Below are positions 2,510 through 15,809 of a DNA stretch of 23,884 nt, in pieces. Below the pieces are notes generated by a model. It ran no database searches. It was not told the origin of the DNA and worked only from the letters and a program-made list of their open reading frames with translations. Location: positions 1 through 23,884 of IMG/VR virus record IMGVR_UViG_3300035698_002522. One strand, 5' to 3'. Positions within the stretch are counted from its first letter, which is position 1. Each line of letters starts with the position of its first letter. Origin of the DNA: a virus. The translations under genes were made by a program, and so were the position numbers.

Positions 2510-3619
2510 TTATTCATTCCAGTTTATCATTGCTCCACATTTTTGCGGATCAATCGGCATCATTTGGCCACGAATATCGACATACTCAACAAACGAGTCA
2601 GTTGTCATCGGAACAAGCTGAACTGGATTGTGTCGCATCCATTTTTTCGCATCTTTGCGGAACCGAAGCAAATCAAGGTTAATGAAGTACATCGGATTGT
2701 AACCGCGATAAGTAGTGCTTGCAGTTTCAAGCTCTTTGACTCGTCTGACGGTGATACCGTTGATGAAGTGCGAGTTGTGATATTTGGTGATATCTGCACC
2801 AATGTTATCGTTCAACTGCTCTTTAACAACGCCAAGCTGCTGCCACATGGTATCGTTGGTATAAATCCGCTTATTCTTAAACGGAGGAGTATCAAGTTCC
2901 TTAACATCGTCAGGAGCCTTGAAATCCATCTGCCAAAGTAATTCGGCAATTCGTACCCTGTCAGTACTTGCGATTGTTCCTTCAGAGTTCGTCCAAGCAG
3001 CATTGTAGTTACGCAGACTCGCGTAAGTAGAATCCGAAAGGTCAACACCACACATGTCGCTGCGGCCGTCTCGGTTAGCACCCTGGAACGATCCACCAAG
3101 AGTTGTGGCAGCACTAATTTGAGCCGCAGTAATCGGGACAATATATTCAGGAATACCAAACAATTGCGTGGCAACACCAGATGTTTCATCCGCAACGCCC
3201 CAGAAGTCACCATCCATACCAGTTAAGAAACTAACATGCTCGGATACCCTAATTCGCTTCAATTCATCGACGATCTTTGCCGGCTTGCGGTTAGCAAGAA
3301 TCTGCTCTTCAATGTACGAAACGTCATACCCGCCAGTAAAGATAGGCGTATTGCCAACAACGGTGTTGTTGATCAAATGCCCCTGACGCTGTGTGCCTGA
3401 TTTGAAATATCGCTTGGTCTTGTCTTTGGCGGCAACGTCATAAATCCAGTTTTCCTGAATCGTAGTTCCGCCTTCTATGACCTCGCCAGTTTGCTTCATA
3501 AACTCGTCTACCATGTAGAACTTGTTCTGAGGCATCATTACATTTAGTTTGTCTTTGTTTAGTTCTGCAAGACTATTCAAAAGACAGTCTGCAAAACCTG
3601 ATGTGTTATAACCAGCCAT
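2510..3619 (-). CDS. Major capsid protein
   Basis: A 369-residue protein starting MAGYNTSGFADCLLNSLAEL. Its length, the lack of transmembrane segments and its place directly after a scaffold-like gene and before small connector genes fit a phage major capsid protein of the HK97 fold. The N-terminal part has a long charged extended stretch (about residues 40-90, with YDVAAKDKTKRYFKSGTQRQ), as in N-arm and E-loop regions. The C-terminal part carries the P-domain-like segment TYRGYNPMYFINLDLLRF followed by MRHNPVQLVPM, the kind of ending seen in virion capsid proteins. Five or six hundred copies would form the shell. I cannot name the closest relative. Portal or tail identity is unlikely because those genes are accounted for elsewhere. 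Confidence 0.75.
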   Translation of the reverse strand: MAGYNTSGFADCLLNSLAELNKDKLNVMMPQNKFYMVDEFMKQTGEVIEGGTTIQENWIYDVAAKDKTKRYFKSGTQRQGHLINNTVVGNTPIFTGGYDVSYIEEQILANRKPAKIVDELKRIRVSEHVSFLTGMDGDFWGVADETSGVATQLFGIPEYIVPITAAQISAATTLGGSFQGANRDGRSDMCGVDLSDSTYASLRNYNAAWTNSEGTIASTDRVRIAELLWQMDFKAPDDVKELDTPPFKNKRIYTNDTMWQQLGVVKEQLNDNIGADITKYHNSHFINGITVRRVKELETASTTYRGYNPMYFINLDLLRFRKDAKKWMRHNPVQLVPMTTDSFVEYVDIRGQMMPIDPQKCGAMINWNE

Positions 3620-6257: not shown

Positions 6258-7970
6258 CTATTGTTCCATATCTGCACTTGCCGTCTCTAGTGGGGTACGA
6301 CCTCTCGCACCACCCATGTTTATCGTTGTATTGTCACCCGCCGGGCTACCTGCTGGTTGCGACTGAGATTGTTGCTCCTGCTCCTGAACATCAATCCAGA
6401 AATCTTCAGTATCGTCTATACCCAAATCGCCACCCATTTCGGAAATCTTCTCAACATTGATAGTCTTACCCTGTGCCGCGGCATAAGGTGCAAGTGGAAG
6501 TATCTGCTCAGCAACATACTTCGCACGACGATCATAGCGTTCTTGAGGAGTGTCCTGCTGGCCAACAAAAACCCTGATATCTAATTCAAAATCACTAAAC
6601 TCACCCTCGCGGTATTCGGGACTCCATTTTTCAATTAAGCCATCATCAATATCGCCAGTCATATTCAGAGAAAATTCTGCGTGATGGTCGTGCCAAAGCC
6701 AATAAGCCGTCTTACTACACAAACTCTTAGCAATGTTGACGACCATTTTACGGAAATCTGCGATCTTAACACCAGATTGACCCAAAAGCATTTCGTCCTG
6801 ACGCCAAGTTCCACTTTGTGGTGACATGCCACCAAGAACGTCGCTATTAAGCGAACTGCGATTATACTGCTCTTCAGCCCACTGTTTACCAGCAAGCATT
6901 GGTTGACTTACACCACCGGTATGGATCGTAGTAACCTCGCCCGAAGCAGAAACAAGGATTTCGCCATCTCTTGCATCTTTCAATGCGTCCAACGTCTTTT
7001 GCTCAGTAAAGTTGCCTACTGGATTGTCTTTTTCCTTCAAAGAACGATCTATAATCTTGTTCGCAAGTTTATTGTTTATCAGATGCAATCCGAGTATTTG
7101 ATAAAGAATCGGAATAGATTTAATAGCACCGGGGCAATCCAAGAAGCTTAGGCGATCATACGGCCCACCTTCCGGGCCTTCATATTCCCTGTCAGATAAA
7201 AACCCTACACGCTCAACTTGTTTCAAATCGCCGGGAATAGTCACTATCCGACGCGTTTGTGGTAAATACAGGTGCAACAGCTTGATTTCGTCATAAATAC
7301 CTGTAAATCCATCTACATCTTCAGGTTGAATCAGCTTTATTAATTCTGGCGGGTACAAACCGCAACCCATCGCAAACTCTTTCGGTACGTCTTGAATATG
7401 ACCCATAAACTTACAAGAATCCCATTTTTTGGAATCCTGGTCGTAAATAAAATCTCTCCGATCAACACATTCGGCAAAGAATTGGCCTGGATCGTCAAGA
7501 TATCCCGTTGCTTCTTTGAAATTGCCGACAATTTTAGCAGGTGCAACGCCGGAAACGATGATCCCATGACCAAGTAAAGCATTGACTATGCAATGCCGGA
7601 TAACTTCATCCATCTTACATTCATGGAACCTTTTATTCGTGGCAGACTCGTAAATGCGTGAGAATGGCCCAAGTCCACCCTTATTCCACCCGAACTTCGC
7701 CTCTGGATCAATTGCCAATAATGGTAACAATGTTATAACTGTATTATACAGCATTGATAACAGCTTATCAGGTTCGTACTCTTTTTTAGTCTCACCGTCA
7801 AAGAACTGGCCGCAAATCTCTTTTACAACAATATCGCACTGATTATTAACCTTTTTGGCATGCTTACTGGATAATTCAACCTGCTGAAACAATCGTGCTT
7901 GTTCTTTATCCATCTTAACACCGGACTCGGTAAAGTCAATGCTATCTGTATAGTTTATATTTGATACCAT
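6258..7970 (-). CDS. Portal protein
   Basis: A 570-residue protein directly downstream of terminase large subunit, the usual portal slot, with the expected size. It starts MVSNINYTDSIDF. Its body is mostly alpha-helical with mixed strands, including an early helix (LLSMLYNTVITLLPLLAIDP), a central segment TIPGDLKQVERVGFLSDREY, a long helix region LYQILGLHLINNKLANKIID and a C-terminal acidic, Gln- and Gly-rich tail. Twelve copies would form the ring through which DNA is packaged. No individual catalytic residue applies. The 3' end overlaps neither neighbour but lies 13 bases past the GroES start. The identity rests on size, order and overall pattern rather than a diagnostic motif. Confidence 0.75.
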   Translation of the reverse strand: MVSNINYTDSIDFTESGVKMDKEQARLFQQVELSSKHAKKVNNQCDIVVKEICGQFFDGETKKEYEPDKLLSMLYNTVITLLPLLAIDPEAKFGWNKGGLGPFSRIYESATNKRFHECKMDEVIRHCIVNALLGHGIIVSGVAPAKIVGNFKEATGYLDDPGQFFAECVDRRDFIYDQDSKKWDSCKFMGHIQDVPKEFAMGCGLYPPELIKLIQPEDVDGFTGIYDEIKLLHLYLPQTRRIVTIPGDLKQVERVGFLSDREYEGPEGGPYDRLSFLDCPGAIKSIPILYQILGLHLINNKLANKIIDRSLKEKDNPVGNFTEQKTLDALKDARDGEILVSASGEVTTIHTGGVSQPMLAGKQWAEEQYNRSSLNSDVLGGMSPQSGTWRQDEMLLGQSGVKIADFRKMVVNIAKSLCSKTAYWLWHDHHAEFSLNMTGDIDDGLIEKWSPEYREGEFSDFELDIRVFVGQQDTPQERYDRRAKYVAEQILPLAPYAAAQGKTINVEKISEMGGDLGIDDTEDFWIDVQEQEQQSQSQPAGSPAGDNTTINMGGARGRTPLETASADMEQ

Positions 7971-7987
7971 ATATCACAAATTACCTG

Positions 7988-9646
7988 TTAAAATTCGCTT
8001 TTATTACGCTCTTTTTCCGCTTGCATTGCATCGAAGTAGTCAATAGAACCAAACAATGGCTGTCTGGATGCCGGTGTATACAACTCAACGCTCGACCGCA
8101 ACCTGTGAGCTACATTAGCCGTTATCATCCGCGACATCAACGCGTCATCGTGCGCACCGTCCGGGGCTGTCATTTTGCCGTGCTTGTCTCGAATAAACGA
8201 CGCCATCTGACTCACTGCTCGCGGGTCACGCCAATCCAATCGCTCCTGTTCGGTAAGCTCCTTCGTCACAGCAACCATTTCGGGCTTAGTGTGAGCATCT
8301 GTCAACCAGCCATAATCTTTTGATTTATGACCTTTAAGCTCTACCTGATTCGACCGAACCCATATTTTAGGGTATGACCAGTTATTACCAGCCAAACCAC
8401 GCAAGACAGCCACAACGCCCTGAGCCGCCTGTGCGTTACGTTCTGGGGCAAGCCATGCAGTATTGTAGTAATATCCCAGTGAAGCTAATATCGCCGCCCA
8501 GCGAGGCATATCCCACCTGCCATGGATACATGCCATCATATCACCAGTTTCAAGGCATTCAACATGAGCTTCGTCATAATCGGCTGTATCCTTCGTACCC
8601 CATTGGCAATCAGCACCAACAACATACGTGTATCGCTTATCAGGCTCCACCCATCGCGACATTGACCCACCATCAGAACCTTCCAATATAAATTCCTCAG
8701 GATTATCCTTCGGGTATATCTCGCCCTTCCATGTCGGAAGTGTAACTGTGTGTTTCGCTTTTACGACCTGCTCGGCTGTAAATATCGCTCCGCCACCGGA
8801 CATAAACGCTTCTTCTGGTGTGCTTGGGTACTGATTGCAGAACATCAATGGGTCTTTTGACTCACTATTGCGAATCTTAAATCGACGCCATGCCAATTGC
8901 TCATCGTCAGCACCTAATCGCTTCAGCTCTCGCTCTGCTGCATTATACTCAATGATATCATTAGCAGGAAGCCTGTATTCGTCCTGAATCAGCCATGACA
9001 GGAATATCTTAGTGTAATCGTTGTCGGTATCACTCCAGAGCCGGTGGAACCAATCGCCGACATTCTCACCGGTTGACTCCAAAGCTATCATTGTACCCGA
9101 TAATGTCGGTATACCTTGGAATGTCTGACGCTCGATCTCGCTTGGATTGAGCCATAACGCCGATTCAGAACCATGAAACCAGTGGGGCGTTGTACCAACT
9201 GCAGGTGTCTTACCCTCAGAACTTCCGATCATGTACCGACTTTTGATGACATCGTACCACATTTCGGAAGCATTGCTTGCTCCTAAGTGCGGTTGTAGTG
9301 ATTCCGGGGTTTCATCGTACCATTGCCTAGCACGCTGTAACCATATCTGGGGCAACTTGAGCTTATCGGCAATACTCATTACCGTCGCGCCAGCATGATA
9401 CTGGGCGTAGTGCTGCAATAAAGCACACAAAAACGTCGACATACCGCATTGACGGTACTTAAGCACTAATAACCGTACAGGCTTGCCGGCTAACAAATCC
9501 CTAACAATCAGTCTGTAAACCTTTAACTGGGCCGGGTTGAGTGCGAATCGGTGTCGGCGCTGATCCTTGCCAATGACATACCAGTGTTTGGCGACAAACG
9601 ACGGGAAGTCCTGGACTAGCCTTATCAGTTGCTGGGACTTGCTCAT
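7988..9646 (-). CDS. terL: Terminase large subunit
   Basis: 552 residues from the ATG at 9646, with GAGG upstream; the longer frame would need a TTG. The N-terminal ATPase has the adapted Walker A of terminases, KYRQCGMST (residues 63-71), and the 'SE-A-W' motif, SESALW (160-165), that marks the coupling and Walker B region. The C-terminal RNase H-like nuclease has Asp346 in GADCQWG, Glu402 in PERN and the HDD pair at 499-501, matching the usual acidic triad. It cuts concatemeric phage DNA and drives it into the head through the portal. Very clear assignment from motif order and position beside the portal gene. Confidence 0.92.
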   Translation of the reverse strand: MSKSQQLIRLVQDFPSFVAKHWYVIGKDQRRHRFALNPAQLKVYRLIVRDLLAGKPVRLLVLKYRQCGMSTFLCALLQHYAQYHAGATVMSIADKLKLPQIWLQRARQWYDETPESLQPHLGASNASEMWYDVIKSRYMIGSSEGKTPAVGTTPHWFHGSESALWLNPSEIERQTFQGIPTLSGTMIALESTGENVGDWFHRLWSDTDNDYTKIFLSWLIQDEYRLPANDIIEYNAAERELKRLGADDEQLAWRRFKIRNSESKDPLMFCNQYPSTPEEAFMSGGGAIFTAEQVVKAKHTVTLPTWKGEIYPKDNPEEFILEGSDGGSMSRWVEPDKRYTYVVGADCQWGTKDTADYDEAHVECLETGDMMACIHGRWDMPRWAAILASLGYYYNTAWLAPERNAQAAQGVVAVLRGLAGNNWSYPKIWVRSNQVELKGHKSKDYGWLTDAHTKPEMVAVTKELTEQERLDWRDPRAVSQMASFIRDKHGKMTAPDGAHDDALMSRMITANVAHRLRSSVELYTPASRQPLFGSIDYFDAMQAEKERNKSEF

Positions 9647-9684
9647 TGCGTTAGTCCTCAAATGCTAAATCAAAAGCCTTGTAT

Positions 9685-11507: not shown

Positions 11508-11536
11508 TTGACTTTTTATGTAATGTATCCGATAAT
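11508..11536 (+). promoter_or_regulatory. Sigma-70-like promoter for the early plus-strand operon
   Basis: TTGACT (11508-11513), a 17-base spacer and GATAAT (11531-11536) face right, with a predicted start near 11543 and the first ATG at 11581. It lies back to back with the minus-strand promoter at 11406-11434. This makes 11363-11580 the divergent control region; no gene in that gap is convincing. Confidence 0.65.
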
Positions 11537-13238: not shown

Positions 13239-13463
13239 ATGAGCAACCGGAACAAATTTTTATACATCTGTGCTGATTGTGGTAAAGGTACATTCTATCA
13301 CAAATACGCAATGACACGGCGGATTAAGCCACACTGTACCGAGTGCGGCAGTACATTTTTGGAGATTGCTGCCGAGTCTGCTCGTGATAAAGTAGCCACG
13401 GGGCATGATGCTTTTATCGCAGATTTGAAAATAAAAACAAAACCCCTTGACTTTGAAGGATAA
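13239..13463 (+). CDS. Small zinc-ribbon protein
   Basis: A 74-residue protein with two Cys pairs, CADCGKG (about 11-17) and HCTECGS (about 32-38), the classic zinc-ribbon spacing, followed by a helix (AAESARDKVATGHDAFIADL) and a Lys-rich tail. GAAAGGAA precedes the ATG. Its 3' end carries the -35 box of the promoter at 13447, so gene and promoter overlap. Possible nucleic-acid binding; no family recognised. Confidence 0.65.
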   Translation: MSNRNKFLYICADCGKGTFYHKYAMTRRIKPHCTECGSTFLEIAAESARDKVATGHDAFIADLKIKTKPLDFEG

Positions 13464-13475
13464 CGGGCGTACAAT
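13447..13475 (+). promoter_or_regulatory. Sigma-70-like promoter of the small-RNA locus
   Basis: TTGACT (13447-13452), a 17-base spacer and TACAAT (13470-13475); predicted start near 13482. The -35 lies in the last codons of the preceding gene. Among the best consensus matches in the window, and followed within 110 bases by an intrinsic terminator. Confidence 0.7.
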
Positions 13476-13481
13476 ACTAAC

Positions 13482-13584
13482 ATGATGAATCAAATGTTCA
13501 AACTAAACTTATCACGCATGACGGCCTTGAACAGCCGGATTCATTTATGCCCTGTACGAGTGAAAGCTCTTGCAGGGTTTTTTT
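13482..13584 (+). ncRNA. Candidate 100-base small RNA with own promoter and terminator
   Basis: Starting just after the promoter, ATGAATC (13485-13491) pairs with GATTCAT (13538-13544). Nested within, TGTTCAA (13495-13501) pairs with TTGAACA (13527-13533). Then comes the terminator stem and a run of seven T (13578-13584). Both helices are perfect. A 106-codon frame also begins at 13482, but it has no ribosome site, runs through the terminator, and its protein is not convincing. Transcript size would be about 103 bases. The function is open: a host-directed small RNA, a sponge, or a leader. Confidence 0.6.
13550..13584 (+). terminator. Intrinsic terminator of the small RNA
   Basis: CCCTGTACGAG (13550-13560) and CTCTTGCAGGG (13567-13577) form an 11-pair stem with one mismatch and one G-U, loop TGAAAG, followed by seven T (13578-13584). 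Rightward only. Confidence 0.8.
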
Positions 13585-13586
13585 AT

Positions 13587-13671
13587 GCCCACAGAAAAGG
13601 TTTGGTCGCTACTGTAATACCTTTAATTGGAACATCTTTTGGATGGGTGCGGTTCAATTCCCACCGTGGGC
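13587..13671 (+). ncRNA. tRNA-like element with partial tRNA features
   Basis: GCCCAC (13587-13592) pairs perfectly with GTGGGC (13666-13671), an acceptor-like helix 85 bases apart. Directly inside the 3' strand lies a T-arm-like GG-TTCAATT-CC (13651-13661), with five pairs if one C is bulged, and an ATTGG similar to the D-loop. No canonical anticodon arm or D-stem could be fitted, so I do not call a tRNA. It may be a decayed tRNA or tRNA mimic; it starts three bases after the terminator T-run. Confidence 0.35.
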
Positions 13672-13952
13672 GATTCTTGGCTATTCTTGAAACGTTATGG
13701 AATAGCGCCGTTACCACTTTTGCTCTACGGACTCCTTTAGGTGGTACACCGACCGACGCGACCGACACAGCACGGCAAATTTTTACAGGTTTTTTTGTTT
13801 AATACTTACACTTGGACTTAAACCGAGAATAAGAGTATACGCAAGATAATACCTGCCGGACTGGATAGGGAAGCTAGGGAAGGGTGAGGCTGGTAAGGAG
13901 TCCGTGTATCTTAACATAATGTAGCCAAGGTCTAACTATAGAAAGGTGAATC
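13672..13952 (+). other. Noncoding stretch with long-range helix before the YopX-type gene
   Basis: No supported gene. ACGGACTCCTT (13727-13737) is an exact inverse of AAGGAGTCCGT (13895-13905), an 11-pair helix spanning about 180 bases. A hairpin GCTATTC/GAATAGC lies near 13678-13706, and TACCAC (13712-13717) with GTGGTA (13741-13746) would compete with or form a pseudoknot with the long helix. A T-rich stretch (13782-13797) lacks a good stem, so it is not called a terminator. The stretch may be a long structured leader of the next gene. Confidence 0.45.
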
Positions 13953-14875: not shown

Positions 14876-14904
14876 TTGACTTCCTTAAACTACAATGTAA
14901 TAAT
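14876..14904 (+). promoter_or_regulatory. Sigma-70-like promoter before the tRNA-like gene
   Basis: TTGACT (14876-14881), a 17-base spacer and AATAAT (14899-14904), start near 14911. Same -35 and spacing as the promoters at 13447 and 11508, and the same AACATGA just after the -10. Confidence 0.6.
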
Positions 14905-14910
14905 AACAAC

Positions 14911-15066
14911 ATGAACGATCAGCAACAATCAAATCCTTCACAACGCCGAGAAAAGATGTGCGTTGTCTTTCCGTTGCTGGTCGCCAGCGTACATCAGGCT
15001 GTGGCGAATTTGGAGCGTGTCCCCTCCCGTTCGCGTTCCGGGTCGCCCGGCCTTTATAACAAAATA
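14911..15066 (+). ncRNA. Highly folded 5' RNA ahead of the tRNA-like element
   Basis: CGATCAGCAAC (14916-14926) pairs with GTTGCTGGTCG (14973-14983): 11 pairs with one G-U. Inside it, ACAACGC (14940-14946) pairs perfectly with GCGTTGT (14960-14966). Further small GC hairpins lie at 15000-15060, including CCGGG-TCG-CCCGG. A 63-codon frame starts at 14911 but has no ribosome site and runs into the tRNA-like body, so it is not called as a gene. This RNA could be a long 5' leader processed from the tRNA-like part, or a separate RNA. Confidence 0.5.
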
Positions 15067-15162
15067 GCGAGAGTGGCGAAATTGGCAAACGCGCGTCGAT
15101 AGACGTAACACATGTGGCCGAATTTTTCGGTGGCCTTCGCAGGTTCGATTCCTGCCTCTCGC
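15067..15162 (+). tRNA. Class-II-like tRNA body, isotype undetermined
   Basis: GCGAGAG (15067-15073) pairs 7/7 with CTCTCGC (15156-15162). The D-arm has GCG/CGC with the AAATTGGCAAA loop (A14 and G18-G19 type). The T-arm GCAGG-TTCGATT-CCTGC is perfect. No CCA is encoded. Between D-arm and T-arm lie 46 bases where no standard 5-pair, 7-base-loop anticodon arm can be formed; instead CGTC-GATA-GACG folds as a tetraloop hairpin and CCGAA/TTCGG as a variable arm. So it may be a degenerate tRNA or a tRNA mimic. A forced read gives AGA (Ser), which I do not trust. Confidence 0.6.
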
Positions 15163-15191
15163 TTTATAATCAACCAGAAAGGAACTTAATC

Positions 15192-15809
15192 ATGTGCAAA
15201 CCAGCATCATTTGTATTAACAAAAACCAAAGTATTTTGGTCTTTAGAATCAGATTCTCACGAGGATATTATAAACGAACACGGTCTAAGCGAAAATGGTG
15301 TTCGAGGTGTAAAAATCCTGCGTGTCGAAATTGCCCCCGATAATGGCGATTTGTCCCGACCGCTTAAAGAATGGGATTTTGGTTACGATCAAGATATGCT
15401 TCCAAATTGGGCTGACAAAAAGACCGACGAAAAGCGAGTAAGGGCCGAGCTTAAATTATGGGCAAAAGCTAAACTCTTTACAAATGGCGAGCATGTAGTC
15501 CGAAAGGGTTTTGCATATGCTTGCGGCTCATCTACAGTGACAGCTTGCGACTCATCTACAGTGAGAGCTTACGACTCATCTACAGTGAGAGCTTACGACT
15601 CATCTACAGTGACAGCTTGCGGCTCATCTACAGTGACAGCTTGCGACTCATCTACAGTGACAGCTTACGGCTCATCTACAGTGAGAGCTTGCGAGAACCA
15701 TTCAACAGCCAGAATTTATGGCGGAGCCAAACCATGTGTGCCAAAAGGCCCAAACGCTGTTGTTATTGATTGCCGCAAAGAACGGGCAAAATGTAAGGTC
15801 GGCAAATAA
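15192..15809 (+). CDS. Phage protein with N-terminal MCKPASFVLTK domain and octapeptide repeats
   Basis: 205 residues from ATG 15192, with AAGGAAC upstream. Residues 1-105 form a domain starting MCKPASFVLTKTKVFWSLES with LPNWADKKTDEKRVRAELKL; the start motif is widespread in phage proteins (a DUF, I believe DUF7666), unknown function. Residues about 110-165 are seven octapeptides of the type A-C/Y-D/G-S-S-T-V-T/R, which predict a regular right-handed beta-helix with a Thr/Ser face, and an eighth degenerate copy. A Lys- and Cys-rich tail follows. Such repeats may bind a polymer or surface. Regulated from the tRNA-like promoter or the main operon. Confidence 0.7.
   Translation: MCKPASFVLTKTKVFWSLESDSHEDIINEHGLSENGVRGVKILRVEIAPDNGDLSRPLKEWDFGYDQDMLPNWADKKTDEKRVRAELKLWAKAKLFTNGEHVVRKGFAYACGSSTVTACDSSTVRAYDSSTVRAYDSSTVTACGSSTVTACDSSTVTAYGSSTVRACENHSTARIYGGAKPCVPKGPNAVVIDCRKERAKCKVGK
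15519..15686 (+). repeat. Seven tandem 24-base repeats inside the octapeptide gene
   Basis: Units of 24 bases, with a core of CTCATCTACAGTGA and two or three variable sites (G/A at the Gly/Asp codon, C/A at the Cys/Tyr codon, C/G at the Thr/Arg codon). 24 is a multiple of three, so slipping changes the length by whole octapeptides without frameshift. An eighth, degenerate copy follows to about 15713. Confidence 0.9.

Follow-up and report, generated by a model that had tools for sequence, protein, structure and literature searches.

The window analysed here, i.e., the whole stretch of DNA under study, comprises 23,884 bases and covers the complete IMG/VR virus record, which could itself be a fragment of a genome. 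The left part carries leftward genes, with a terminase-like protein (terL) at 7988-9661, and the rightward genes are related to recombination and replication (RecT, exonuclease, SSB, HNH, RusA and methyltransferase). A DNA similarity search against phages and plasmids gave no match to the window, and no close relatives of the virus were found with the terminase, the YopX and zinc-ribbon proteins, the proteins at 2510-3619, 6258-7970 and 15192, and RecT as queries. The protein encoded at 15192-15809 contains numerous DSSTVRAY-like repeats, each of about eight residues, and only distant relatives of it were found. The promoter-terminator unit on which we focus is located in a gap of 489 bases flanked by two rightward genes:

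13239-13463, + strand: upstream gene for a small Cys-rich, zinc-ribbon-like protein, with weak Pfam matches only; the -35 element of promoter P_A lies in its last codons
13953-14390, + strand: next gene downstream, encoding a YopX-family protein (Pfam PF09643, E 1.9e-15), with the Shine-Dalgarno sequence AGAAAGG

The + strand of the window harbours three sites of the type TTGACT-17-NANAAT against 0.037 expected per strand, and shuffled sequences never gave three. These sites, together with the region in which transcription from the second of them would start, are as follows:

11508-11536, + strand: promoter P1, TTGACT-17-GATAAT, heading the rightward gene block
13447-13475, + strand: promoter P_A, TTGACT-17-TACAAT, with TTGACT at 13447-13452 and TACAAT at 13470-13475, overlapping the 3' end of the upstream ORF
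13476-13485, + strand: initiation region of P_A, ACTAAC-ATGA, whose ATG coincides with the predicted +1 at 13482, a leaderless-type start
14876-14904, + strand: sister promoter P_B, TTGACT-17-AATAAT, with an ATG at the predicted +1 (14911); promoter alignment z 4.7

The near-consensus promoter proposed in the first-pass annotation of this DNA is thus present in all its parts, namely TTGACT, the 17-nt spacer and TACAAT. P_A and P_B have the hexamers and the initiation region in common (TTGACTT-N17-ANAAT-ANNAAC-ATGA), with the ATG placed 6 nt past the -10 element. Judged by these features, P_A is the predicted own promoter of the short unit, far beyond chance. Between P_A and P_B at 14876, the + strand contains no promoter-like site matching at least 9 of 12 positions, and no further good sigma-70-type promoter is predicted ahead of the YopX gene. 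The YopX gene could be expressed from weak or phage-specific promoters outside the reach of the scan.

Downstream of P_A lie two predicted RNA structures:

13484-13545, + strand: 5' nested hairpin, with an outer helix (13484-13491/13538-13545), an inner helix (13495-13501/13527-13533) and a 25-nt loop (13502-13526)
13549-13584, + strand: intrinsic terminator with a GAAA loop and a T7 tail at 13578-13584; the opposite strand has no T-run

The RNA of 103 nt corresponding to 13482-13584 folds with a minimum free energy of -31.2 kcal/mol (z -3.5 to -3.75), which agrees with the deep stem with nested helices anticipated for it. The mean z of 190 windows of the same length from the same genome was -0.26, and z reached -3.5 or lower in 0.5% of them. 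The first-pass annotation described two nested perfect helices of seven pairs each; both helices are found, with pair probabilities mostly of 0.9-1.0, the inner one having seven pairs, the outer one eight with one terminal G-U. Most of the significance of the whole fold is supplied by the terminator hairpin (z -5.0, -17.6 kcal/mol). When the terminator is left out, the 5' hairpin has a z of -2.05 and was equalled by 32 of 1000 shuffles (3.2%), i.e., its helices are weakly significant on their own. The terminator and its seven T were likewise correctly recognised, with the correction that the stem consists of 12 pairs (8+4) with a 1x1 mismatch and not of 11. No terminator with at least six T and at -15 kcal/mol or lower occurred in 40 shuffled genomes, one strand of each being searched, and as a prediction the terminator is far beyond chance. 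If the promoter and the terminator both work, an RNA of about 103 nt starting near 13482 must arise; such an RNA is very probably produced, and the description of 13447-13584 as a small RNA unit is reasonable. Among other known elements, a C4-type immunity RNA was rejected as no Rfam match was found, a retron was rejected because the scanned proteins included no recognisable reverse transcriptase, and an intron was rejected because both flanking ORFs are complete.

The terminator lies shortly behind the final P1-block gene and would also act on P1 transcripts, and it could accordingly mark the end of that operon, the promoter nearby having arisen by chance. We consider this very unlikely, because P_A is one of a family of promoters with matching initiation sequences (z 4.7), which makes a chance promoter improbable; moreover, the next genes would be left with no other clear promoter.

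The first-pass annotation stated that the transcript holds no ribosome site. This is correct for a Shine-Dalgarno sequence, but the AUG at the predicted +1 is a start of the leaderless type. To see the motif in a wider context, IMG/VR was scanned with the pattern TTGACTTN17ANAATANNAACATGA; the 95 stretches returned were reduced to 57 distinct cases by their first 12 residues, with related sequences still remaining among the 57. In 81% of the distinct cases, the motif ATG starts an ORF of 60 aa or more, versus 18% for random ATGA controls, the median ORF length being 129 versus 16 aa. In 60 other good promoters from the same contigs, picked without regard to an ATG, the ATG peak at the 6-nt offset amounted to 8/60, and by a rough estimate chance would be expected to give few of the 95 motif stretches. 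On this evidence, we take the initiation motif as a marker of leaderless messages in many phages. As the ATG of P_A falls on the predicted +1, the short RNA would begin with AUG, inside the following frame:

13482-13802, + strand: 106-codon open frame beginning with the +1 AUG and running across the terminator and tRNA-like element A (described below)

A leaderless mini-gene would account for this arrangement: ribosomes would initiate at the +1 AUG and translate all 106 codons or, if the RNA is terminated, 34 stop-less codons of a non-stop message. The association of the motif with leaderless genes elsewhere (81% of 57 cases, median 129 versus 16 aa) speaks for it, and so does the openness of all 106 codons, whose score of -0.058 bits per codon, in a codon model trained with the genes of this phage, exceeds that of 95% of wrong frames (average -0.23, 95th percentile -0.10). 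However, nearly all real genes score positive in the same model, the part of the frame before the terminator is noncoding-like (-0.18), and the corresponding +1 AUG frame at P_B scores as noncoding. The frame crosses both the terminator and the tRNA-like element, the AT skew goes negative across it, unlike in the neighbouring + strand genes, and no homologue of its product was found. Because of the low codon score and the missing homologue, its status as a gene is doubtful; the frame is probably not a gene, although its translation is possible, and we regard the mini-gene as unlikely. In E. coli, terminators located no more than 100 bp into a coding region remain efficient despite translation (PMC4824070). 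The +1 AUG should therefore be no bar to termination, and the short RNA is expected either way.

Beyond the terminator, the first-pass annotation, which was right about the unit having its own promoter, its own terminator and a folded RNA, overlooked not only the +1 AUG and the frame open through the terminator, but also a tRNA-like element directly downstream and a sister unit at 14876:

13587-13672, + strand: degenerate tRNA-like element A, with acceptor GCCCAC/GTGGGC, a T-arm with one bulged C and a variable-arm-like hairpin
14911-15066, + strand: structured leader of P_B (z -4.21), which also begins with a nested two-helix hairpin
15067-15163, + strand: tRNA-like element B, Rfam tRNA score 39.4 bits (cut-off 29), class II, with a Leu-like D arm and no encoded CCA

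Element A is 86 nt long and starts three bases past the T-tail. Its six-pair acceptor stem joins the T-arm directly and the T-loop is canonical, while the D arm and the anticodon arm are degenerate. ARAGORN called it only at the 80% threshold, where chance-like candidates also appear, and the Rfam tRNA model gave no match to it, only the acceptor stem and T-arm being recognisable. The 3' end of element A and the 3' portion of a tRNA-Asp from another phage share the 20-mer GTTCAATTCCCACCGTGGGC without a difference. The acceptor and T-arm pattern occurs three times in the window (elements A and B and one chance-like site) against 0.235 expected per shuffled window. In the predicted fold of element B, the anticodon stem is capped by a loop of 4 nt; decoding by this element is doubtful because of the abnormal anticodon arm, and it may be a non-decoding tRNA.

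Each of the two leaderless-type promoters is thus followed by a folded leader and then by a tRNA-like element, and in the P_B unit the order is promoter, structured leader, tRNA-like element and gene, with no strong terminator. From +1 to the tRNA-like element, the leaders of P_A and P_B are not significantly alignable (z 1.1), and the tRNA-like parts align with a z of 2.6. Shared ancestry of the two units is unproven, because their leaders cannot be aligned beyond the promoter. A relative of the gene after element B (L006) has no tRNA or comparable leader upstream.

A terminator at -10 kcal/mol or lower within 250 nt follows three of the 56 motif promoters that could be checked (of the 57 distinct), and the same three (L045, L067 and L099) are the only motif promoters with a tRNA gene at most 1.2 kb downstream. 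Each consists of the promoter, a leaderless ORF of 42-43 aa, a terminator near +184, the rrn-boxA-like sequence GTTCTTTAAAAATTT, and then an array of 9 to 18 tRNAs, the first of them at +218 to +238. The rrn-boxA-like sequence suggests antitermination of the tRNA array. As the three belong to one lineage, they serve as a parallel and not as statistics. They resemble the unit in the window in the promoter and initiation motif, the short transcript, the intrinsic terminator and the tRNA directly downstream, and differ in that their conserved ORF of 42-43 aa is complete, with its stop before the terminator, and in that their tRNAs are intact. The frame in the window was rejected as a relative of these mini-ORFs, as no alignment or detectable similarity was obtained. 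It is conceivable that a leaderless-type promoter, a nested hairpin, a terminator or strong hairpin and a tRNA or tRNA-like body form a recurring phage module, in which the stop-less RNA starting with AUG and the degenerate tRNA-like bodies would act jointly, e.g., as decoys for ribosomes or the tRNA machinery; we find this reading very improbable. If a link between such short terminated units and tRNAs or tRNA-like elements holds across unrelated phages, it would become testable how phage tRNA transcription is controlled.

The first-pass annotation expected the RNA to serve as a regulator or decoy. As a trans-acting sRNA, it would pair through the 25-nt loop at 13502-13526 with a phage or host mRNA and alter its translation or decay, and the predicted folded transcript with its own promoter and terminator and a large single-stranded loop speaks for this. 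The best phage partner of the loop is the sense strand of the terL mRNA at 8412-8386 (- strand), with -30.2 kcal/mol compared to -22.3 for the next site; none of 120 shuffled loops equalled this pairing, and an extreme-value fit by hand gave a p of about 0.01. This value is weak given the search over several possible elements, the target lies deep inside the gene, away from the ribosome site, and the pairing includes several G-U pairs. Rfam searches of the transcript at gathering and loose thresholds gave no credible family, and no homologue was found, thus the role in trans is left unsupported except for one weak antisense match. We regard a trans-acting sRNA as possible but rather unlikely, and the predicted loop-terL pairing as a weak lead for it.

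Two further features were noticed around the unit. The first is a structure between element A and the YopX gene:

13720-13912, + strand: long stem structure (z -3.69) within the YopX-family gene's 5' region, closed by ACGGACTCCTT/AAGGAGTCCGT, an 11-bp perfect inverted repeat whose arms are 157 nt apart

The second is the sequence AACAAAACCC at 13436-13445, upstream of P_A, which is complementary to the 3' arm and U-tract of the terminator (13575-13584) and is carried only by transcripts coming from upstream. When the fold is started at 13400, the pairing probability of the terminator decreases from 1.0 to about 0.7. This modelled pairing might weaken the termination of transcripts started upstream and offers a weak lead for differential read-through. 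No boxA or nut was found near the unit, the sole boxA-like match in the window, at 2817, being at chance level, and no antitermination factor was named among the proteins scanned.

We tentatively propose, at somewhat less than even confidence, that the locus is a short self-terminated early unit, i.e., a promoter-proximal attenuated leader similar to 6S of lambda, before the operon of the YopX-family gene. Host RNA polymerase would start at P_A with +1 near 13482, and most of the transcripts would end at the terminator at 13584, giving the RNA of about 103 nt. Barring read-through, the terminator would hold transcription into the tRNA-like element, the structured 5' region and the YopX gene low. 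Since it lies between P_A and the downstream operon, low transcription into this operon would be its main effect; the function of the promoter and terminator and the regulation of read-through are inferred, and the short RNA would be mainly a leader product, with a role in trans possible. At the sequence level, the attenuated leader is supported by the promoter and terminator, both beyond chance and in the same direction, by the order and direction of the elements including the tRNA-like one, by the lack of a promoter-like site between P_A and P_B, by the matching order in the P_B unit and by the similar layout in one unrelated phage family. Against it speak the lack of a relative in the searched collections and of an antitermination factor, nut or boxA near the unit. 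If the unit is real, the signature TTGACTT-17-ANAAT-ANNAAC-ATG could be used to find leaderless phage transcripts in metagenomes.

The 6S RNA of lambda, about 190 nt long, is a late-operon transcript subject to antitermination by Q. As the pR'-tR' leader, it shares with the unit in the window a short transcript that extends from a phage promoter to an intrinsic terminator close by and precedes an operon dependent on read-through; the differences are that no Q-like factor was found here and that the unit in the window precedes a tRNA-like element. The claim that small RNAs with their own promoter and terminator are rare in phage early operons was too strong, as the class of short phage RNAs has many members, e.g., OOP, 6S and PreS of lambda, sar of P22 and VpdS of VP882 (PMC12197685). 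Like the RNA in the window, OOP, PreS, sar and VpdS are short, structured and located among phage genes, and several of them are separate short transcripts. They have demonstrated targets or Hfq binding, whereas the putative RNA in the window has a single weak candidate target and no Rfam relationship. By its predicted features, the unit resembles the short leader RNAs known from phages, of which it would be a variant, and, if real, it would add one more short terminated transcript to the small RNAs and leaders of phages.
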